Shown here: piece after piece, positions 28,401 to 63,663 of the stretch
Position numbering within the stretch: position 1 is the stretch's first letter
How the letters are laid out: each line of letters starts with the position of its first letter
Assembly: GCA_944321445.1 (NCBI GenBank)
Contig: CALULJ010000008.1
Span: 1-64,000, forward strand
From: an uncultured Collinsella sp.
Lineage (GTDB): Bacteria; Actinomycetota; Coriobacteriia; Coriobacteriales; Coriobacteriaceae
Direction: 5' to 3'
DNA: 64,000 nt
Position numbers and translations under genes: made by a program
Notes under the pieces: generated by a model
Databases searched by the model: none
What the model saw: only the letters and a program-made list of their open reading frames with translations
What the model was told of the DNA's origin: nothing

Positions 28401-31400
28401 TTAGTGGCTGTTGCGACGGCGCAGGTACAGGCCGGTCGCGATGAGCGCCGCGGCCGCCAGGCCGGTGCCACCGATAGCCGCGACGGCGAAGTCGCCGGTC
28501 TGCGGGATGCTCTCAGAGGGCTCTTCGGGCTTGGTAGGCTCCTCGGGCTCCTCAGGTTTCGTGGGCTCCTCAGGCTCGGGCTCGGGCGTCGGCTCGGGCT
28601 CCTCGCTGGGCTCGTACTCGTTCTCGAAGACCATGGGCGCGTCAGCGTTCTCCCAGGTCACCACAAGCTTGTTGCCCTGCTTGGTCACGTGCGCCGTAAT
28701 GGTGAACGTGGCCTCGTCGTAGGTGACGCCGTCGCTCTGGACGCCCTCGGTGTCGGGGTCGTCGTCGGCGGGCAGCACCTCGGTCACGGTGAACGTGTAG
28801 TCGCCGGCCTTGTCGAACACGAAGCCCTTTCCGCCGAACGTCACGTTGCCGGACGCATCGTTGGTGCCGGTCAGGCTCTTCGGCGAGACGTGTGAGGCGT
28901 TGTCGCCCGTGGCGGTGATGACGAAGGAGAACTCGCCGTCGACCAGGTCACGGCCGGTCAGCTTCTTGTCCACGTCGGTGTCCGGCTTGGACGGGTCGGA
29001 GGGATCGGGATCGACAGGCGTCGGCGGGGTGTACGGCTCGTCGTAGACGTTCTCGACGGTCGGGTTGTTGAACTCAACCGTAGCCTCGAGCTTACCGTCG
29101 TGATCCTCGTCGGTCACGTGCACGACGATGGTCTTGGGCGCGTTGTCGTACGCCCAGTTCGGGTCGTCGGTCGTCGTGATCTCGGTCACGGTGAAGTGGT
29201 AGTCGCCGACCGCGTTGAAGGTGAGGTCGCCGAAGTTCAAGGTCTCCTCGCCCTGCTTGCCGGTGAGGCCGGAGGTGGCCTTCACGATGCCGTCTGCCGT
29301 GATGCCCTCGATGTCCTCGAGCTTACCGGTGCTGTTCTCAGCGTCAAATGCGAGCACGAACTCGAACTCGGACGGAGCGTTGCCGCCGGTGACCCTCTTG
29401 GTCACCTGGAGGTCGGCCTCGTCGTCGCCCACGATCACGCCTGCAGGCGTGTAGGTGTTCTCGATGGTCGTGGTTTCCGGGTCAATGCTGTCAACAACAA
29501 GCTTGCCGTCCTGGTCCTCGACCGTGACCGTGATGGTCTTAGCCGCGTTGTCATAGGTCCAGCCACCTGCTGTGGTGGTCGTGAGCTCGGTCACCGTGAA
29601 GGTGTACTCGCCCGCAGCAGTGAAGGTCAGCCCGTCGAAGGACACGGTCTCGGAGCCCTCCCTGCCCGTCAGGCCCTTGGTCGAGGTCTCGATGCCCCCA
29701 GCCGGGAAAGCAGTCGCGGACTCGCCGGATCCAACGAACACATTGGCCGCATTATCGGACGTCAGCTTGAGCTCGAACTCGAACTCAGACAGCGCCGGAG
29801 CACCGGAAACCTTCTTGATTACCGAAATGACGGCATCATTCGGATCGCTCGCGTCGGGGTTGTAGACGTTCTCAACAGTCGGGTTGTTGGTGTCGATGCC
29901 GTCAACGACGGTGGTCGCATCGAGCTGGCCGTCAAAGCCATCGTCGGTCACTGTGACCGTGATGGTCTTGGCCGCGTTGTCATACGTCCATCCGTGCGCG
30001 CCCTCAGGCTTCGTCGTGGTCTCCACCACCGTGAACTTGTAGACACCGACCTTCTTGAAGATGAGGTCGCCGAAGCTCACGGTCTCCTCGCCCTGGGTAC
30101 CCTCGAGGCCAGCGGTCGCCTTCACGATGCCATCGCCGGTGATGCCATCGATATCCTCGAGCTTACCCGTGTTGCCCTCGGCGTCAGCGTCGAACGCGAG
30201 CGTGAACTCGAAATCGGACAGGGCGTTGCCGCCGATGACCTTCTTGGTCACCTTGAGGGCACCCTCGCCACCAACGGTCACGCTTGCAGGCACGTAGGTG
30301 TTCTGGATGGTCGGGTTGTTGCCCTCAATCGCATTCTCGGCGATTTCAAGCTTGCCGTCGCCATCGGTGTCGGTCACCGTAACCGTAATGGTCTTCGGCT
30401 GGTTGTCGTACTTCCAGTAGTCATGGTCGGATGTCGTGGTCTCCTTCACCTCGAAGGTGTACGTTCCCGCCTTGGTGAACGTCATGGAGCCGAAGCTTAC
30501 CGTCTCGGAACCCTTATTTTTCTCGAGGCCCTTGGTGCTTGCAGTAACACCGCCATCCGGGAAGGAAACGTCCTCACCTTCATCGTTCTTTACCTTGATG
30601 TCATCCTTGTTGCCAGACTTCAGAGTGAGCGCAAAGTCAAACTCGGACAGCGCCGGAGCACCCACAACCTCCTTGGTCACCTGGATCTGGGCCTGGTCAT
30701 CGCCGCCAATCTCAGTGCCCTCGGGGATGTACGTGTTAGTGACTGTGAACAGCAGAGCATTCTCGGGATTCGTCGTGACGGTGATGTTGCCGGCACCATC
30801 GTCCTTCACGGTCACCGTGATGGTCTTTGTGCTGGTGTCGTACGTCACGCCTTCCATCTTCTCATTTTCGGCAGGCCCGTTCTCGGTCACCTCATAGGTG
30901 AACGTCTTCTCGCGCTTCTCACCGGAAGCGGCAAGCGTGTTCGGTAAAGGCGTGACGCCCCAGGTGTTCTCGAGCGTGTAGTCGATGGTGCCGAAGTCAA
31001 CCTTACCGTCGGCGTCATTCTTGACCGTCTTCGAGCCGTCGACAGCGCCCTCGGGCATCGGAGCGTTCGGGTTGCTCTCGCTCGGCTTCAGTGTAAAGCT
31101 GAACTCGCCGCCCTTCAGGTCGGGAGCGTCAACGCCCTCCATGCCGGACTTGAGCACCTTCTCGCCCACGATGTTGAGCTTAGAGCCCTCGGCGCTATGC
31201 TCGGTCTCATCGTACTTGTTCTTGAACTGCAGCGGAGCATTCGCCTCGCCGTAGTTGACAGACGTGTCCATCGTGCCGTTGCCGTTGTCCTTGACGGTCA
31301 CAGTTACCTTGTAGGACGTAGCACCAACAGTCGTAACGCTTTCCGGCAGGTTGTCGATCTTCTCGGACACGGTGTAGGCAATGGTGTAGGTCGCGAGGTC

Positions 31401-34400
31401 GGTGCCCTCGTCGGCCGTCTTGGTCACGCCGGACTCCTTGTCCTTCGCGAGCTCGTCGAGCTCGTTGCTGTTGTAGGAGATCTCGTCGAAGGAGATGGCA
31501 GCAGCCTTGCCCTCGTCGGCGCCAGCGTTCTTGCCCTCAGCGACCACGTTACCCTTGGCGTCCTTCACCTCGAACGTGAACTCGCCCTGGAGCAGCTCGC
31601 GACCGGACAGGGTCTTCTTGGCCTCGATGGAGGCCTTGCCCTCGGCGTTGAGGCCGCCCGTGCCCTTGTACTCATTGGTGAACGCGGCAACGGCGGTTTC
31701 GTTCGCATCGGCCTCGGTCACGGCGTCGGTGTTCTTCACCGTCACCTCTGCCTCGAGCTTGCCGTCGGCATCGGTGTCGGTCACCTCGACAGTCACCGTG
31801 GCGGTATGCCCGTCGTAGGTCAGGCCGTCCTTGCCCCCGTTCGTCTCGGTGATGGTGTACTCGTAGGTTCCGACCTCGTCATACGTGATGTCGCCGAACG
31901 TCGCGACCTTGGGGGCGCTCACGTCGGTGATGGTCACCTTGGCGCCGTCGCGCTCGGGAATCGGGGCCGTGGCACCCTCGATGACGTTGCCCTCGTGATC
32001 CTTAACGGCACCAGCAGTGAGCACGAACTCGAAGCTGTCGCCGTCGATCCAGTTGCGGCCGCTCAGCGTCTTCTGGACGCTGATGGAGGCGTCGCCGCCC
32101 TCGCCGACGGTCACCTTCTCCGGAGTGTACTTGTTCACGAAGGAGAACAGCGGGGCATCCGCAGTCACGGCAGGATTGGTTTCCACCGTGACCTTGCCCT
32201 TGCCGTCGTCGTGCACGTGCACGATGAACGTCTTAGCGGAGTCCTCGGTAACGCCGGCCACCTTCGACTCTTCCTCGGTCACCGTGTACTTGAAGTACGC
32301 GTCGCGCTCCACGCCGCCAACGGCAAACGTCGTCACTTGGCGTCCCCACACGTTTTCAACCGTGAAGTCGATGGTGCCGAAATCAACGTTACCCTCGGCA
32401 TCATTCGAGACCGTCTTCGAGCCATCAGTGTCGGTACCCTCGGGCATGGGAGCGGGTTTTCCGCCCTCAACCGGATTACCGTCCTTATCGACCTGCTCGC
32501 CCGTCAGCGTGAAGGAGAACATGTTGTCCCTCAACTCGGGGGCGTCGACGCCGGCCATGGTGGACTCGATGGACTTCGTGCCCTCAACAGCGATCTCGGT
32601 GTCGGAACCCTCCTTCTCCTCATAGATATTCTTGAAGCCGAGCGATGAGGTGCCGGTGGGATAGTTCACCTTGACGGACAGCTTGCCGTCACCGTCGTCA
32701 GCAACAACAACGGTGATATCGAACGATGTCGCGCCATCGGGCGTCACGCCGGCATCGCTCAGTCCGGTCTTATCCTCTTCCACCTTGTAAGAAATGGTGT
32801 ACGAGGCCAAATCCGTCTTGTCGTCAACCGACTTGGTCACACCCGTCTTCTCGGGGTCCTTTGACTTCAGCTCGAGATCCTTGATCTCATATTTAATGGC
32901 GCTGAACGTGATGGCTGCAGCATCGCCGTCCTCGGCGGGAGCATTGGTTCCCGTAGAAACCGTCTGACCGGCCTTATCCGTGACCTTGAAGGTGAATTCC
33001 TCCTTCTCCATGTTACGGCCGGTCAGGGTCTTGTTGGCAGCGATGCTCACCTCGCCGTTTCCGCCAAGCTCACCAGTAGAGGTATAGGTGTTGGTGAAGT
33101 CGACGCGGCCCGTACCCTCGTACGGTTCACCATCGCGTGTGATGGTAGCGGTGCGGTTCAGGACATGCTCACCGTCCTGCACAACGTCCTCGATCACGAC
33201 GGTCACGACGTAGGTCGAGCTGTCCTTGGTAACACCCGCCACCGTGCTGTTGCGCTCGGTGATGGTGTACACATAGGTGCCCTCGTGCGTGTAGGTGGGA
33301 ACGCCCGTGCCAAACGCATAGCTGTTGCCCGTCGCGCTCTGCGAGGGGTTGATGGTGATGTTGTACCTCAGCCCACCGTTAGTCTCGGTGAGATCAGCAA
33401 CGTTACCTGCCAGGTTGTTGAAGTTGAACTCCGGCAGATCGTCCTTGGCAATCCCATCAGCCTTCATCGACACGTCGAAGGTGAAGGTGTCGCCCTGTTG
33501 CCAATTGCGGCCGCTCAGCGTCTTGAAGATCTGGATGCCGCCCGTAATCGTGCCGGCGTCGTACTTGTTGACGAAGTCGAGGCTACCCAGAGTCGCGGGG
33601 ACATTCTCGGTATCGCCCGAGTTCACCAGAACGGCCTCGCCCTCGGCGGTGATCTCACCGGTCGCCAGATCCTCGGTCACCGTGATGGTAACCGTGTACG
33701 TGCGGCCAGGATTCACTGCGCTCACGCCGGCGGGCATATCGGTTTCGTTCTCGTACACGTTGTACTGGAACGCCTTGCTGATCTTGCCGTCGTTGTCGTC
33801 GTCGGTCACGCCGGCCAGATCATCATGGTCGAAGGTGATGCTGCCGAAGCTGTAGTCGGCGGTATACGCATGCGCGTCGGTGTTCGTATTCTTAACCGAC
33901 ACGACCTTGTAGCCGTTAGTGTCAGTCTCAACCGTCAGGTTGTCGGGCATCGGATTGGCTTCAGCCTGCGCACGCATGACGAACGTGAACTGATCGTCGG
34001 CCATCTGGAACGAACCAACGTTGTCCTCGACCGTCTTGTGGCCGCTCAGCATCTCGTCGGCTTCGAGACCGAAGGTGTAGGGCTTGCCCTCGAAGGTGTT
34101 GACGAACTCGACGGAGGCATCGTCCGTGCCCGGAGTCACCTTGGCCTGCAGCGTGCCGGAACCGTTATCGGTCACCTCAACGGTGATGGTACCGACGTGG
34201 CGGTCGTAAGTCATACCGTTAGTGCCGTCCTCGGGCAGTTCTTCGCCGTTGTGCTGCGTCTCGGTCACATTGAAGGTGTACGTGCCGGGCTCAGAGAACA
34301 GGTAGGTGCCGGCGAACCAGAAGGTGCCGTTCTTGTCGTTCTGCTCGTTAGCCGTGGCGGTAGCGCTCTCAAAGGCAACCGGCTCGGTACCCTCGGCCGC

Positions 34401-37400
34401 GTTGACGGGGAGATACGTCACGTTATCCCACGAAGCACCTTCAGACACGGCGCCCTTGGTCAGCTCGAAACCGAAGGTCTCGTTGTCGAGCCAGCCACGC
34501 CCGTTGATCATCTTGGTGCCTGCGAAGGTGGCCTCGCCACCCTCAACGGTAGCCGTACCGGCCTTGTAGGTGTTCTCGAATTGGGCAGGACCGCTAACGG
34601 TGGCGTGGAGGCTGCCGTCGTAGTTGCCATCAGCATCAGTCTCGGACACGGTCACCGTGATGGTTTGAGTGCTGTTATCGTAGGTCCAGCCGGCGGGATC
34701 GGTGGTCTCGTCCTGAGCCTCGTCCTCAGTCACGTTGAACGTATAGGTGCCGGGCTCGGTGAACGTAATCTCACCAAACTGAGCGCTGTGCGTGGCGCCG
34801 TCGGCAAAGCTCTCGGTCACCGCGGTCTTATCGGCAGCGCCCTCTTCGTACTCGACGGTGCTCCAATCGACACCCTCCTCCTCAACAGGAGCGAAGGTGA
34901 AGTGGAAGTCGGCATCGGTGGACCAACCCTTGACCGTCTTCTCGACCGTCAGAGCCTCGGCAGCGTCGCCGCCGATGGTGACGGTGCCGTGGTCGTACTT
35001 ATTCTCAATCGTCGGGTTGTTGCCCGTCACATCGCCGATGTAGAGATTGCCGTCATACTGAGGTGCATCCCCGCCGGGCTCGTAGTCGGGATTAATGTCC
35101 GTAACCTCGACAGTGATCGTCCTAGGCGTCGTATCGAACGCCCAACCGTCGTCAGCGGCAGGCTGATTCTCCTGCACCGTGAAGGTGTAGGTACCCGGCT
35201 CAGTAAAGGTCAGCGTGTCGAAGCTCAAGGTCTGGGTGTTACCAGCCGCGATAGTTCCGCTGGTGGTCTCCGTGGTCTGATGATTCTCATCAAGACCCTT
35301 GATGTTCGCCACGGGTCCCTCAGTAGTATCCTGCGCGGTCAGCGTGAAGGTGTAGTCCGCAGCGGACGGGGCACCGGTAACCCTCTTGGTCACCTGCAGC
35401 GCATTGTCGGTGTCCTCGCCCATGTCGACGGAATTCGGGTTGTAGTCGTTCACGAAGCCGAAGGTCGGAACCACGTAGCCATCAGCATCGGAATTGGCGT
35501 GATTAACAACGACCTTACCGCCGTCCGCAATCTCGTTTCCATCCTTATCCAGGGTCTGAGTAACCGTGGTCACGGCATGCATGGTGCCGTCACCGTTGTC
35601 CACAACCTCGATCTCGACCTTATACTGAGACTTGTCGTAGCTAACGCCCGCGAGTCCCTCGCCCTCGACGGGCTCGGTCTCGTCCACGATGAACGTATAG
35701 GTCTTGCCAGCGTCCGTCTCATCAAAGGTCAGGCTCTGGAACTTGGCCATGGTGATGGTCTGATCGGCCGCCGCTCCCGTGTTCTGGAAGCTCTCGTCAG
35801 CGTTAGTGGTCAGATCCGCCGCATCGCCCTCGCCGGTAATGGTGAAGGTGAATTCGCCAGCGGTCATCGGGCGGTCGAGGAGCTGCTTGGTGACGTTGAT
35901 GCCACCCTTGCCCTCAGCACCGTACTTCAGCTCTGCCTCGTAGACGTTGGTAAACACGGCCTTGCCGGTCTCGTCGCTACCATTGTTCTCGTAAACAATG
36001 GGACCGTCGAGCACCAGCGCGCCGTTGCCGCCGTCCTTGACCTTGATGGTCACCTTGGCGACATTCTGGCTGTAGGTCATACCGTTGCCATTAGCGGTCT
36101 CGGTTCCTTGATCGTCAGCAACCTCGTTCACGGTAAAGGTGTACGTACCGGCCTTAGAGAAGGTGAGCGCGCTAAACGCGAAGTCCATACCGCTGGCCTT
36201 GGTGACAGTCTTCACCTCGGGATCAGCAAGCACTGTCTCCGGGCCGCCCGTCTGCTCCAGCTGGAAGTAGAACGTCTCGTTTTCGCCTATCTCGCGACCC
36301 TGCATCACCTTGGTGCCATGAATGGCCTCGTTGCCCTTCAGCGTATAGTCCGTCGGATCATAGACGTTGATGAACTTCACATCGGCAGGCTGCATGCTGG
36401 GCGTGGCCACGAGGTGCATGCCCTCACCCTGCTCGTTGGGCTCATCGGTTATCTCAACGGTGACGGTGTACACCGTGCCGTCATAGGTCATGCCGTTCAC
36501 CGACCAGGTGCCATTTTCGTTCTGGGTTGCATCCTCGGGGATAACCTCACGGATCTCGTAGATATAGGTGTTGTTCAGATGCGTTCCGTTATACCTGATG
36601 GTCTGGAACGCGAAACCATCAGGGTTCGTGCCATTGTTGCCAATGGTGATGGTGTGCGTATCCGCATCCGCGCCCTCGGGCATCGGGACGTCAGCCGCCT
36701 CAATAGTCGGGTTCTGCGCGGAGCCACCGTTGGTTGCGTAGCCGCCGATCGCCTTCAGCTCAAACGTGAACTTGTTGGCTGCGTTCGGATTGGCACCGGA
36801 GTTGTCCGTGTAATACTTGGTACCGTTGAGGTTGGTCGTGGCCTCCGTAGCATCGTAGTTGTTGGTGAACACGACCGTATTGTCGGTAATCTGCGGCTGC
36901 TCAGCAGGCGTGTTGCCGTCCACGTCAGTGCGCTGCGTGAACTGGACGGACTGAATCTCGAGCTTGCCCGTGCCGTTATCCACAACAGTAATGGTCACCG
37001 CATAGGTCTCGTTGGAGTAATCGATACCCGCGATCGGGTCGGTATCGTTGTCCTCCTCGATGACATAGGTGAACGTGCCCGGGTTCTCAAACTTGATGTT
37101 GCTCAGGTTGACGGTGTAGTCAGCAGCAGCATCCTCGTCGTCGACCACGACAGCGTCAGTGGACTCAGGCGCAGGGGCACCGCCCTCGGGAAGCATGGTG
37201 AACCTAAACTCGTCAGTATCCTGCCACTCGCGTCCGGTCAGATTCTTCTTCACCTTGACCAGCTGGTTGGCGCCTTCCAGCGTCACCTCAGTTGCGTGAT
37301 AGGTGTTGGTGAACATCGCAGTCTGCTGGCTGCCGCCCACAATGGTACCCTCGACAATACCGTCGTCGGTCTTGGCATTCTCGCCTGTCGAATTGTCCGT

Positions 37401-40145
37401 CGTGGCAAAACCGTTCTGGTTCGCAGTCTGCTCGGTCACGGTGTACTGAGCGCCATTGGGCAGGTCGGAAATCACGACATACTGACCGCCCTCAAGGGTA
37501 ATCTCACCGTTGTCAGAGACGGTACCCTCGCTCACAGGCGTCTCGCCCGTTGCGTATACGGCGTAGTCGTATTGGTTGGTGAGGTTGGTCTCAGCGCCGC
37601 CCTCGCCCACGGTGTACAGATGTACCGTGAACTTGAAGGTGTTCTTGTCCGCCTGTGTCTCGCTGGAGGCATTGCCCCAGTCGACATTCTTGTCGATGCG
37701 CAGATCGCCAGGAGCGTCAACGGAAAGCTTGCCGTTGTTACCCAGCTTCTGAGACACACTGTTGCCAACCCACGTCGGGGTCAGGACCGTAGAAGCGGTA
37801 CCTGTGAGATTCTCGCCCTTGTTGGACACGAGAGTTCCCGGACGATCCGCACGAGGCGTATCCGCCGCGATGTAAACGTTGCCGTTCCGGTAGGTAACAT
37901 TCCAGTCGTTACCACTACGGGTAATGGAACCGTTAGCGGGAACCTCTACAGCTCCGTTGTCATTTCCTGTCAGCTGCCAATAGCTGTCCTGATAATAGAG
38001 AGTATTGTACCGCGCGATATTGTTGGGCGTAGCCGGCTGCGTGCAATCCTCGTCGATGAAGAGCTGTGTATTGACGGGGTAGTAGTAGAACTTGTTTCCG
38101 TCGCTCGGCGTGAAGGAGGCCTCGGTCGTGCCCTGGGCGGCTTCCTGTACGAAGCTGTTGGAGTAGAAATCAACGGTCGTTCCGTCAGCAGAGGTCTGCG
38201 CCAGAACCGCATCATGATTTGCATCCTGCGGATTATTCAGAGCATCGATGACCCCATCCTTAACGCTGACGCCATAGAACAGACGAACCGGGAAGGTGTC
38301 ACTCACGGTCATCGTGCCATTGTCGGTGTCAACGTCATAGTTACGCATCGGGATGAGCGACGCGGGAATCTGCACGGTAATGATGTCACCCGTCGCAAGG
38401 TCGTTGCTCTTGGTGACCGTTACTTTGATTTCCGAAAGATCTGCACCCTCGGGGTAGGCGGTGTTCACGCCATTGCCCTCGTTGACAACGCCGGAGAACG
38501 TCCAAGTATTGCCACGGTCACTGGTCGTGCCCTCATGGAGTCCGTCAGCGAACGCAAGATACATCTTGTTGTTGTCCGCACCCACACCCGTGACTTCCAT
38601 GAAGGAACCAAGGGTGTCGGTAAAGGTCAGGTAGCCAGGGGTACCCGCGGCGCCCTCCACCTCTTCAATCGGAGAACCGGAGCCTTGATTGATGGGGAGA
38701 GACTCGGTGATGTCCTCAAACACCTGGTTGAGCTCATCGGCGTTGGAGGCAGCAAAGTAGTACTGCGGGGTCTCCTCCCCTTCGGCCCCTTCAACACGGT
38801 CGCCAAGAACGAGGTCACCGTAGTCGTCGGTCTGTCGCCACTCATACTGCGGATTCCAGAATGATCCAACGTTTACATTATCCGCGCACTCGGCATCAGG
38901 ATAATTACTCGAGACCGCGTTCATATAGCGATTGAAGTCATTGTTCGTGTCAGAGGGGTTGGCTCCTTGGAACACGCCGATGCTGTAAACAAGCGCACCG
39001 TCCTGCTTCATATCGTATGCATAGTTGATAGCCGTACCGGCAACGCTATCGCTCCAGCTTGAAGAGGTGGTGGGGTTGCCATCAGTGAAGAAGATGACGA
39101 TCTTCTGTGCGTTTGTGCGCGCGCCCGTGAGATTGCCGTCACCGTCGAGAACACGCTGCGCCTGATGCATGCCGTAGTCAGCACGTGTTGCGCCTTCACC
39201 CTCCAGGGAGTTGATTGTGTTTTTGAGGGTTGATGCATTCTGCGTCGTGTACGCAGTCAAATCCGAAACGACTTGAGAAAAGTTGTACCCGTCCCAATTG
39301 GTACCGTTGCCAATCGAGTTGTTCTCGTCGCTTGCAAACTTAACAAGTGAGATGCGGTGCTGCTGAGCAGTATCGGTAATGCCGTCATTCATGGCAGCAA
39401 CAGAATCCACAAAGGCATTGGCGGCATTCTGGAGTGCCTCCATGCGGCTCATCTGCTGGTTAGAGCGCGTGTAGAACTGGACGCGACCGTCAGCAGTATC
39501 GCCTTCCCAACGCATAGGAGTAACGTACGTGCGGTTGTAGCTCGGTCCGTAATACCAACCTTGGTTGTTGTGCTCAAGCTCAGTCCATTGACCATTGACC
39601 TGGATGTAATAATTATTCCGGTTGTTAGTGTTATAGGTGGGGCTGTAGGAATAGCCCATGTCGTGACCGCTGTTGTTGTCCATCGAACCAGAAGTATCCA
39701 CCACGAGAACAATATCGAGCGGGGTGGTGTTGGTAACAACAGATTTCAGGTTGGAGGTAGAGGAGATGGCAGACAGGCTCACCAAGAAGTCGGAATCGGA
39801 ACCCTTTACGACGCTCGTGTCATCAAGCGCGCCCTCGAAGTTATAGTCATCATTAAAGACACTTTTATCAGTCCAAATGCGACCTATGTTCTCCGTGCTC
39901 TTAGAGTTCGCCGCCAGCGTCTCCCATGCGTTCGTCGTGTCGGGATCCACCACGGTGTCAGCGCCGTCGACAGCATAAAGTTCAATCTCGCTGTCAGCAC
40001 TAAACAGCGAGATCCCAAACAGCTGTTGCGTTATTCCATTAACACCATTGGAAATTGCGTTCCCCAAATCCTCCAGGGGATTCGCATACGCTCCGGGAAC
40101 CGCCACGGAGCATGCGATCGCGATTGCCATCATCACGGCAATCAC
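28401..40145 (-). CDS. Giant LPXTG-type surface adhesin: vWA domain plus about 20 pilin-type isopeptide repeats
   Basis: About 3,914 residues. After a hydrophobic signal stretch (VMMAIAIACSVAVPGAYA) comes a von Willebrand A domain with its metal site DIVLVVDTSGSM at about 145-155, a linker domain, a first CnaB-like module, then by my count 19 modules of the Spy0128/FctA pilin type. Each has a Lys strand (VTKTLSGR-like), a Glu strand (TFTVTE or YTITE) and an Asn end (FENTY or FVNKY), the residues that form internal isopeptide bonds. The tail is Pro/Glu-rich, then IPQTG, a membrane helix and RRRNSH, a sortase sorting signal. Predicted role: cell-wall-anchored stalk with adhesive tip. No sortase or pilin neighbours are here. 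The start shown (GTG) lacks a ribosome-binding site and the signal-peptide n-region; the likely true start is ATG 40233, out of frame because of a G tract. Confidence 0.92.
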   Translation of the reverse strand: MIAVMMAIAIACSVAVPGAYANPLEDLGNAISNGVNGITQQLFGISLFSADSEIELYAVDGADTVVDPDTTNAWETLAANSKSTENIGRIWTDKSVFNDDYNFEGALDDTSVVKGSDSDFLVSLSAISSTSNLKSVVTNTTPLDIVLVVDTSGSMDNNSGHDMGYSYSPTYNTNNRNNYYIQVNGQWTELEHNNQGWYYGPSYNRTYVTPMRWEGDTADGRVQFYTRSNQQMSRMEALQNAANAFVDSVAAMNDGITDTAQQHRISLVKFASDENNSIGNGTNWDGYNFSQVVSDLTAYTTQNASTLKNTINSLEGEGATRADYGMHQAQRVLDGDGNLTGARTNAQKIVIFFTDGNPTTSSSWSDSVAGTAINYAYDMKQDGALVYSIGVFQGANPSDTNNDFNRYMNAVSSNYPDAECADNVNVGSFWNPQYEWRQTDDYGDLVLGDRVEGAEGEETPQYYFAASNADELNQVFEDITESLPINQGSGSPIEEVEGAAGTPGYLTFTDTLGSFMEVTGVGADNNKMYLAFADGLHEGTTSDRGNTWTFSGVVNEGNGVNTAYPEGADLSEIKVTVTKSNDLATGDIITVQIPASLIPMRNYDVDTDNGTMTVSDTFPVRLFYGVSVKDGVIDALNNPQDANHDAVLAQTSADGTTVDFYSNSFVQEAAQGTTEASFTPSDGNKFYYYPVNTQLFIDEDCTQPATPNNIARYNTLYYQDSYWQLTGNDNGAVEVPANGSITRSGNDWNVTYRNGNVYIAADTPRADRPGTLVSNKGENLTGTASTVLTPTWVGNSVSQKLGNNGKLSVDAPGDLRIDKNVDWGNASSETQADKNTFKFTVHLYTVGEGGAETNLTNQYDYAVYATGETPVSEGTVSDNGEITLEGGQYVVISDLPNGAQYTVTEQTANQNGFATTDNSTGENAKTDDGIVEGTIVGGSQQTAMFTNTYHATEVTLEGANQLVKVKKNLTGREWQDTDEFRFTMLPEGGAPAPESTDAVVVDDEDAAADYTVNLSNIKFENPGTFTYVIEEDNDTDPIAGIDYSNETYAVTITVVDNGTGKLEIQSVQFTQRTDVDGNTPAEQPQITDNTVVFTNNYDATEATTNLNGTKYYTDNSGANPNAANKFTFELKAIGGYATNGGSAQNPTIEAADVPMPEGADADTHTITIGNNGTNPDGFAFQTIRYNGTHLNNTYIYEIREVIPEDATQNENGTWSVNGMTYDGTVYTVTVEITDEPNEQGEGMHLVATPSMQPADVKFINVYDPTDYTLKGNEAIHGTKVMQGREIGENETFYFQLEQTGGPETVLADPEVKTVTKASGMDFAFSALTFSKAGTYTFTVNEVADDQGTETANGNGMTYSQNVAKVTIKVKDGGNGALVLDGPIVYENNGSDETGKAVFTNVYEAELKYGAEGKGGINVTKQLLDRPMTAGEFTFTITGEGDAADLTTNADESFQNTGAAADQTITMAKFQSLTFDETDAGKTYTFIVDETEPVEGEGLAGVSYDKSQYKVEIEVVDNGDGTMHAVTTVTQTLDKDGNEIADGGKVVVNHANSDADGYVVPTFGFVNDYNPNSVDMGEDTDNALQVTKRVTGAPSAADYTFTLTAQDTTEGPVANIKGLDENHQTTETTSGTIAAGNTQTLSFDTLTFTEPGTYTFTVQENQPAADDGWAFDTTPRTITVEVTDINPDYEPGGDAPQYDGNLYIGDVTGNNPTIENKYDHGTVTIGGDAAEALTVEKTVKGWSTDADFHFTFAPVEEEGVDWSTVEYEEGAADKTAVTESFADGATHSAQFGEITFTEPGTYTFNVTEDEAQDETTDPAGWTYDNSTQTITVTVSETDADGNYDGSLHATVSGPAQFENTYKAGTATVEGGEATFAGTKMINGRGWLDNETFGFELTKGAVSEGASWDNVTYLPVNAAEGTEPVAFESATATANEQNDKNGTFWFAGTYLFSEPGTYTFNVTETQHNGEELPEDGTNGMTYDRHVGTITVEVTDNGSGTLQAKVTPGTDDASVEFVNTFEGKPYTFGLEADEMLSGHKTVEDNVGSFQMADDQFTFVMRAQAEANPMPDNLTVETDTNGYKVVSVKNTNTDAHAYTADYSFGSITFDHDDLAGVTDDDNDGKISKAFQYNVYENETDMPAGVSAVNPGRTYTVTITVTEDLATGEITAEGEAVLVNSGDTENVPATLGSLDFVNKYDAGTITGGIQIFKTLSGRNWQQGDTFTFDVSMKADGIAKDDLPEFNFNNLAGNVADLTETNGGLRYNITINPSQSATGNSYAFGTGVPTYTHEGTYVYTITERNSTVAGVTKDSSTYVVTVVIEDVVQDGEHVLNRTATITRDGEPYEGTGRVDFTNTYTSTGELGGNGEVSIAANKTLTGRNMEKEEFTFKVTDKAGQTVSTGTNAPAEDGDAAAITFSAIKYEIKDLELKSKDPEKTGVTKSVDDKTDLASYTISYKVEEDKTGLSDAGVTPDGATSFDITVVVADDGDGKLSVKVNYPTGTSSLGFKNIYEEKEGSDTEIAVEGTKSIESTMAGVDAPELRDNMFSFTLTGEQVDKDGNPVEGGKPAPMPEGTDTDGSKTVSNDAEGNVDFGTIDFTVENVWGRQVTTFAVGGVERDAYFKYTVTEEESKVAGVTEDSAKTFIVHVHDDGKGKVTVETNPAVTADAPLFSFVNKYTPEKVTVGEGGDASISVQKTLSGRNWIDGDSFEFVLTAGAVKDHEGNVIEGATAPIPERDGAKVTITDVSAPKVATFGDITYDEVGTYEYTITETNGGKDGLTYDGHTATVTVEVTDTDADGKLEAEVTVKNTDAVTEADANETAVAAFTNEYKGTGGLNAEGKASIEAKKTLSGRELLQGEFTFEVKDAKGNVVAEGKNAGADEGKAAAISFDEISYNSNELDELAKDKESGVTKTADEGTDLATYTIAYTVSEKIDNLPESVTTVGATSYKVTVTVKDNGNGTMDTSVNYGEANAPLQFKNKYDETEHSAEGSKLNIVGEKVLKSGMEGVDAPDLKGGEFSFTLKPSESNPNAPMPEGAVDGSKTVKNDADGKVDFGTIDYTLENTWGVTPLPNTLAASGEKREKTFTYEVTENGPAENEKMEGVTYDTSTKTITVTVKDDGAGNITVTTNPENALLFTVTNTYIPEGTEIGGDDQAQIQVTKEVVGAPALSEFDFALTLKSGNKDDIKVKNDEGEDVSFPDGGVTASTKGLEKNKGSETVSFGSMTFTKAGTYTFEVKETTTSDHDYWKYDNQPKTITVTVTDTDGDGKLEIAENAIEGNNPTIQNTYVPASVTVGGEGALKVTKKVIGGNALSDFEFTLAFDADAEGNTGKLEDIDGITGDGIVKATAGLEGTQGEETVSFGDLIFKKVGVYKFTVVETTTKPEGAHGWTYDNAAKTITVTVTDDGFDGQLDATTVVDGIDTNNPTVENVYNPDASDPNDAVISVIKKVSGAPALSEFEFELKLTSDNAANVFVGSGESATAFPAGGIETSTKGLTGREGSETVSFDGLTFTAAGEYTFTVTELTTTTAGGWTYDNAAKTITVTVEDQDGKLVVDSIDPETTTIENTYTPAGVIVGDDEADLQVTKRVTGGNAPSEFEFVLAFDAENSTGKLEDIEGITADGIVKATSGLTGKQGEETLNFGDLTFNAVGDYHFTVTEITTTDDPNWAYDNAPKTIVVHVTDEDHDGKLEATVEFNNPTVENVYDEPYTPPTPVDPDPSDPSKPDTDVDKKLTGRDLVDGEFSFVITATGDNASHVSPKSLTGTNDASGNVTFGGKGFVFDKAGDYTFTVTEVLPADDDPDTEGVQSDGVTYDEATFTITAHVTKQGNKLVVTWENADAPMVFENEYEPSEEPEPTPEPEPEEPTKPEEPEEPTKPEEPSESIPQTGDFAVAAIGGTGLAAAALIATGLYLRRRNSH

Positions 40146-40194
40146 AGCGGAGAACCGCTTACGAGCGGTATCAGAGGCTACTCGTTTGGAGCAA

Positions 40195-40233
40195 CCCCCC
40201 CCCCGTCACGTATTTTTCGAACCACCGACTCAT
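40195..40233 (-). promoter_or_regulatory. Upstream start codon and 10-G tract: probable phase-variation switch of the giant adhesin
   Basis: On the minus strand, AAGGA precedes ATG at 40233 by 9 bases. Translation gives MSRWFEKYVTGGG and then reaches a run of ten G (40195-40204). With ten G the frame ends at TGA after 20 codons. With nine (or twelve) G it joins the adhesin frame and adds CSKRVASDTARKRFSA ahead of the hydrophobic core, completing a textbook signal peptide. A stop (TGA at 40206-40208) lies just upstream in the adhesin frame, so no earlier in-frame start exists. Confidence 0.8.
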
Positions 40234-40714
40234 ACTAACCCATCCTTCTCGTCTGCTGCGATTAAGCAACGTTTATGGCCCTCGGCACCCGCATCACCCG
40301 CTTGATATCCGACCACGAGCTCTGCGTATGCCTACGGCCACGAACAGCGATACACGCGTAACACTTTAACACTTAATTTCCGCTTAAGGTTCGAGTTTAG
40401 GTTGAAATATCAGAACCCCTGCTGAATGAACGCTCCACACCATCATTTACCTGCACATATTCTTTTAAGAGCTTGTGTAAGGGATTTGTTTCCTCTTAAC
40501 GACGAACGCCCCCATCGCACCCGTAAACGGCTCCCGTTATCCGATGTTAAGCGCTCGCTCCACCGCGAGACTCCCAAACCCCTGCAAATCAACCCAGCAC
40601 CTATCCCTCCAATCATTCAATTTGCTTCTATAAAGCAATATCATGCACAATTCATATAGAACATACTCTATACTGCGTATTTACCTACCAAACCAACCCA
40701 CTGGAAGTCGCCCT
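40234..40714. other. Divergent intergenic region
   Basis: About 480 bases with lower GC than the flanks, holding the leaders of the giant adhesin (left) and the ATP-binding protein (right). A doubled word AACACTTTAACACTTAA is near 40358-40376. I see no convincing gene. Confidence 0.5.
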
Positions 40715-63560: not shown

Positions 63561-63663
63561 TGTCCTCTCTGGGTGTCCCCTCTGGGGACGGGGTGCCAGG
63601 GGGCACTTTGTCCCCTCTGGGGACGGGGGTAGGAGAGGACACTTTGTCCTCTCTTGGGACAGG
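63561..63663. repeat. Family B repeat, abutting the rsmG stop
   Basis: Three GGGGACGGGG-type blocks separated by CACTTTGTCC; begins TGTCCTCTCTGGG and ends TTGGGACAGG. Its first base is the base after the TAA of rsmG. Confidence 0.85.

Follow-up and report, generated by a model that had tools for sequence, protein, structure and literature searches.

A run of ten G near the 5' end of a gene for a giant surface protein was analysed in a 64,000-nt stretch of DNA from an uncultured Collinsella sp. (GenBank assembly GCA_944321445.1, contig CALULJ010000008.1, positions 1 to 64,000), here called the window. This G10 tract is very probably (probability roughly 0.88) a contingency locus for slipped-strand phase variation of the protein. 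The polymerase would slip on the G run during replication, gaining or losing a G. Where the tract has 9 or 12 G, the cell would make one protein of ~3,943 residues, Sec-secreted and anchored to the wall by sortase. With other tract lengths, translation would stop within ~20 codons and no surface protein would be made. The population would be reversibly mixed, some cells bearing the giant VWA/FctA surface protein and others lacking it. That cells actually switch, that the protein is displayed on the surface and that it acts in adhesion or immune evasion is inferred. The locus has the following elements:

40243–40250, minus strand: ribosome-binding site GAGAAGGA, read from the sequence, 9 nt 5' of the ATG (AGAAGGA at 40249–40243)
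40231–40233, minus strand: ATG start codon of the switched gene; an uninterrupted homologue in C. tanakaei ET30 uses the equivalent place
40195–40204, minus strand: G10 tract, at which slippage is proposed to switch the gene; 9 or 12 G are productive, and seven other homologues have nine or ten G at this place
40171–40233, minus strand: 20-codon frame as assembled, with the OFF product MSRWFEKYVTGGGLLQTSSL by translation and a TGA at 40173–40171
40083–40194, minus strand: predicted signal peptide of the ON state, with basic n-region CSKRVASDTARKRFS, hydrophobic core AVIAVMMAIAIACSVAVPG (hydropathy up to 2.7) and a putative AYA cleavage site
28401–40145, minus strand: long open frame of 3,914 codons for the giant surface protein; its first in-frame ATG, GTG or TTG is GTG 40145

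A preliminary description of this DNA had reported the ribosome-binding site, ATG 40233, the ten G and the TGA after 20 codons, and every coordinate holds. It had also predicted that removing one G, or adding two, would fuse the start to the long frame. When tract lengths were varied in silico, 9 and 12 G opened the frame, which then reads MSRWFEKYVTGGGCSKRVASDTARKRFSAVIAVMMAIAIACSVAVPGAYA and runs on through the 3,914 codons, while 7, 8, 10, 11 and 13 G gave an early stop. A one-base length change at the tract, at nt 30 of the switched gene, thus toggles between the full-length and the truncated frame. The ON frame enters the long frame via KRVASDTARKRFS, followed by the hydrophobic core ending in AYA, and the n-region ahead of the core is basic, as proposed (net charge +4).

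The start codon and the ON frame were settled by the homologue of C. tanakaei ET30, because it reads in one uninterrupted frame from a homopolymer-free start, GGTGGAGGT, through to the signal peptide. This start is encoded by ATG GGT CGG CAC TTC AAG AAC AAT GCA ACG GGT GGA GGT TGC TCC GAG CGA GTA. The ET30 peptide TGGGCSERV corresponds to TGGGCSKRV in the predicted ON peptide of the window, with the G run interrupted by synonymous codons, and AGAAGGATGG is preserved 5' of the ATG. The comparison of homologues supports the start codon, the ON frame and the tract position as first read from the window. One could instead propose that the long frame is translated from GTG 40145 or another internal codon, with the upstream ATG and the tract irrelevant. 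In the long frame, GTG 40145 is indeed the earliest start codon, with no ATG, GTG or TTG between it and the in-frame TGA (40208). However, it has no preceding ribosome-binding site, and its product would start inside the hydrophobic core, without the basic n-region. The preliminary description had named tract-free homologues with a conserved start at this GTG as its counter-case, but no homologue starts at the equivalent place, and ET30 starts at the upstream ATG. An internal start is hardly credible, and it was rejected on the ET30 start and the missing ribosome-binding site.

Eight homologues, including the window, had nine or ten G between start and signal peptide. The seven others came from the genus, the family and one metagenome-assembled genome, with one assembly per species. 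As assembled, the tract was 10 G and OFF in the window, L007, L216 and L219, 10 G and ON in L011, 9 G and ON in L214, and 9 G and OFF in L012 and L217. This comparison of tract lengths, which the preliminary description had proposed as a check, therefore gave mixed phases. Two of the eight tract-bearing genes were in frame, against 24 of 24 without a long tract (Fisher p = 3e-5), and two of eight fits the 1 in 3 expected from random phase. The 24 include L014 (G6), whose start is in frame, with a separate stop farther downstream. The window's arrangement of start, tract and TGGGC recurs at L186, on an otherwise different giant protein.

The shift required to restore the frame was +1 in the window, L007, L217 and L219, −1 in L216, and none in L011 and L214. 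G runs can cause slippage of RNA polymerase and ribosomes, so the frame might be restored in expression, by programmed ribosomal frameshifting or transcriptional slippage; the tract would then tune output, and there would be no DNA switch. Slippage of this kind would allow some protein from an OFF genotype. A programmed frameshift, however, would keep one direction, whereas the shift differs among homologues, which fits random slippage; moreover, ET30 has no run at the tract position and is read straight through. Programmed frameshifting was disfavoured on the varying direction, and restoration in expression as a whole appears improbable, although transcriptional slippage on the G run may act as a minor leak.

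An error of assembly or sequencing, with a true tract of fixed 9 G and a gene that is simply ON, is similarly improbable. Homopolymers are error-prone, and annotated G lengths can deviate from the true ones (PMC9187656). On the other side, six of the eight tract-bearing homologues are out of frame, in both directions, and, with MutS and NucS both missing from the genome, even 9 G would be prone to slip. In addition, tracts of 10–13 G recur at matching places across species at other loci of the genus (12, 11 and 10 G in L108, L138 and L162; 13, 10 and 11 G in L109, L128 and L159).

Because the window copy is assembled out of frame, it could also be read as a decaying pseudogene in which a frameshift at the tract has become permanent. 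Apart from this break, the 3,914-codon frame is intact; the probability of such a frame arising at random is ~3e-50. Between the window and L007, both assembled OFF, dN was 0.13 and dS 0.58 over 1,464 codons, and the resulting dN/dS of ~0.23 indicates purifying selection and a gene that has not decayed. The out-of-frame homologues were broken only at this tract, or in L012 additionally at a second G tract. The pseudogene, a very remote prospect, was rejected on dN/dS and frame integrity.

The G10 tract stands apart from the other G or C runs in the window, which numbered 307 of length 4, 59 of length 5, one of length 6 and none of lengths 7–9. By a first-order Markov model, whose estimate is too high in the tail of run lengths, 0.12 runs of at least 10 would be expected in the window. 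In the 2.36-Mb assembly, only two runs of at least 10 G were found, the window tract and one of 13 G; the genome-wide counts rest on pattern searches and sampled stretches. A dinucleotide shuffle alone is a weak control, because it permits more long G runs than real genes contain. A chance run was ruled out by the run-length counts.

The MutS mismatch-recognition domain (MutS_I) was not found in the window's genome, nor in 44 of 45 genomes of the genus; the single exception is an unusual frame of 3,249 residues. NucS was not found in the window's genome. Control genomes gave positive matches. All Coriobacteriia analysed earlier were likewise without NucS and MutS-MutL (PMC5290159). Since both known post-replicative mismatch-repair systems are missing, slips at G runs would presumably stay uncorrected.

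Several points weigh against slipped-strand phase variation. In L213, the nearest relative by mature domain in another genus (77% identity across the first 600 residues), the tract is absent. L012 needs two tracts altered together: in this homologue (genome G038), tracts of 9 and 8 G lie 168 nt apart, flanking the signal peptide, and both are out of frame as assembled. A simple sigma-70 scan around the window gene found no promoter-like site. Finally, the tract length is known from one assembly per species, and ten G in the consensus might be an error for a true nine. The preliminary description had assigned the sequenced genome to the OFF state; the assembled ten G are out of frame, as it said, but the length comes from one consensus assembly and may be off by one. 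With these points included, slipped-strand switching was retained as the favoured explanation. Judged from the sequence, the locus very probably belongs to the slipped-strand, simple sequence repeat (SSR) phase-variable class: a homopolymer of at least 8 near the 5' end, a frame toggled by one base, and both ON and OFF states among relatives were all found.

Tract presence and absence required at least 4–5 changes on the mature-domain tree; the tract has therefore been repeatedly gained or lost. Upstream of homologues, a common GGGGGnGGTACAAAA-like element was seen (L213:1314, L220:838, L007:9673, L216, L218), perhaps a shared promoter or operator. At L188 (G030:C10), a G10 run lies within a promoter-like spacer (TTGGCA-17-TATCCA), ~250 nt upstream of the homologue start, and at L191 (G031:C10) a C11 run lies ~160 nt upstream. 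Transcriptional switching of the same gene family is possible at these two loci.

The long frame has these further features:

38913–39416, minus strand: VWA domain, residues 244–411 of the long frame (Pfam PF00092, E 2.7e-7)
37299–37709, minus strand: DUF7601 domain, residues 813–949 (Pfam PF24547, E 1.1e-16)
28560–37300, minus strand: FctA/Spy0128-like isopeptide-domain region, 19 stretches with approximate outer limits (Pfam PF12892, E 3.5e-295)
28401–28508, minus strand: sortase sorting signal, from sequence, with IPQTG (28494–28508), hydrophobic helix, RRRNSH tail and stop

With a C-terminus of IPQTGD...LYLRRRNSH and a signal peptide in the ON state, the predicted product is a wall-anchored giant surface protein. 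It had been called a giant adhesin; the domains bear out the giant surface protein, but the word adhesin exceeds the evidence, as an adhesion role is inferred from domains only. A PDB sequence search with the N-terminal 615 residues found no relative. Sortase genes lie elsewhere in the genome, with PF04203 matches at C1 and C12 and one at C34 below the cut-off. The flanking genes checked included neither sortase nor pilin; those with a Pfam match encode an aminotransferase, a RecG C-terminal-like ATPase domain protein and a phosphoglucomutase. As no pilus operon or class C sortase was found among these flanking genes, the product was not classed as a pilus subunit. A terminator scan around the gene found nothing. 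At 2806–2879 and 63574–63660, the window has tandem 36-bp units with GGGACA/TGTCCCC, like the G-rich intergenic repeats near several 9-G runs in the genome.

The 13-G run of the same genome (G000:C3:65164–65176; L006:8165–8177, minus strand) lies in a gene for a fusion of MutH (Sau3AI-like) and a C5-cytosine methylase. With 13 G, the methylase part at the C-terminus is out of frame; with 12 or 15 G it is in frame, which makes the gene a candidate phase-variable restriction-modification gene (phasevarion). Another 14 runs in this genome have exactly nine G (e.g. G000:C4:87993–88002). The C4 run is flanked by TTGACG and TATACT (spacer 19), precedes a gene for a DUF6020 protein and is a possible promoter-spacer switch.

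Across the genus, 96 tracts of at least 10 G were counted. At the opening of frames of at least 500 codons, 18 of these tracts had G on the sense strand and two had C; among control runs of G4–6, 32 of 746 were at such openings (p = 2e-6 vs long tracts). The tract-associated proteins contained SpaA, FctA, VWA with a GBS104-like tip-pilin domain, BspA-type LRR and F5/8-type domains, and at several loci the tract was within or adjoining the signal peptide. Tad/Flp-type pilin-like genes (L103, L104, L105, L136, L170) had an ATGCATG start, whose two ATGs overlap in different frames, and a G10 run after it; two of three tract phases would therefore be productive, with differing N-termini. In LuxR-type regulator genes of three species (L108, L138, L162), the tract is directly 5' of the frame. 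A reverse-transcriptase (RVT_1) gene has a conserved tract of 10–13 G near its 3' end in several species (L109, L128, L134, L159).

We lean, by a small margin, towards a wider proposal for the Coriobacteriaceae (Collinsella and relatives), which are without both known mismatch-repair systems. They would carry genome-wide G-tract switches on surface proteins, Tad-type pilins, regulators and restriction-modification genes, with repeated gain and loss of the tract at the same signal-peptide site, and a clonal gut population would be a mosaic of surface and methylation types. Of larger interest is this repertoire across a genus of bacteria in which no known mismatch repair operates; with MutS-MutL and NucS absent, the group offers a natural test of G-tract behaviour. 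Collinsella is, like its relatives, a common gut inhabitant. A working switch would make the cells within a strain differ randomly in a giant wall protein, and colonisation, immune recognition and strain comparisons would be misread from single genomes; annotation would list many such genes as frameshifted or truncated at the N-terminus. The mechanism is already known; the G-tract switch is apparently the first described in Coriobacteriia, and literature searches for phase variation, simple sequence repeats or homopolymeric tracts in Collinsella returned nothing on topic.

Poly-G and poly-C contingency loci of Neisseria, Campylobacter and Helicobacter are switched ON and OFF in translation by one-base changes near the 5' end. 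Those loci are from Gram-negative pathogens and their proteins are not sortase-anchored, whereas the window gene has a predicted sortase anchor. In Gardnerella, many homopolymer tracts are found at surface-protein and methyltransferase genes, most G/C tracts are upstream of frames, and length variation was shown for one gene (PMC11287997). Like Gardnerella, the genus of the window is actinobacterial and has many homopolymer tracts at surface-protein and methyltransferase genes, but class and proteins differ. The closest detail comes from Bifidobacterium breve UCC2003, in which G tracts of the sortase-dependent pilus genes bbr_0113 and bbr_1889 undergo replication slippage; bbr_1889 is OFF with G10, and loss of one G joins the frames (G9, ON) (PMC9187656). 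Mixtures of G lengths were measured there, and pili were seen on in-frame strains (PMC9187656), whereas switching and product are predicted for the window. Both have a short upstream frame with a ribosome-binding site, then a G tract, after which the giant LPXTG-type surface protein follows in a different frame; both are assembled OFF. Unlike B. breve, of the Bifidobacteriales, the window belongs to the Coriobacteriia and has a single gene with VWA and 19 FctA domains and no sortase among the flanking genes checked. The protein resembles streptococcal FctA/Spy0128 pilins and VWA-containing tip pilins in its FctA isopeptide domains, VWA domain and sorting signal, but it stands outside a pilus operon and, unlike those pilins, has 19 FctA domains within a single chain exceeding 3,900 residues.

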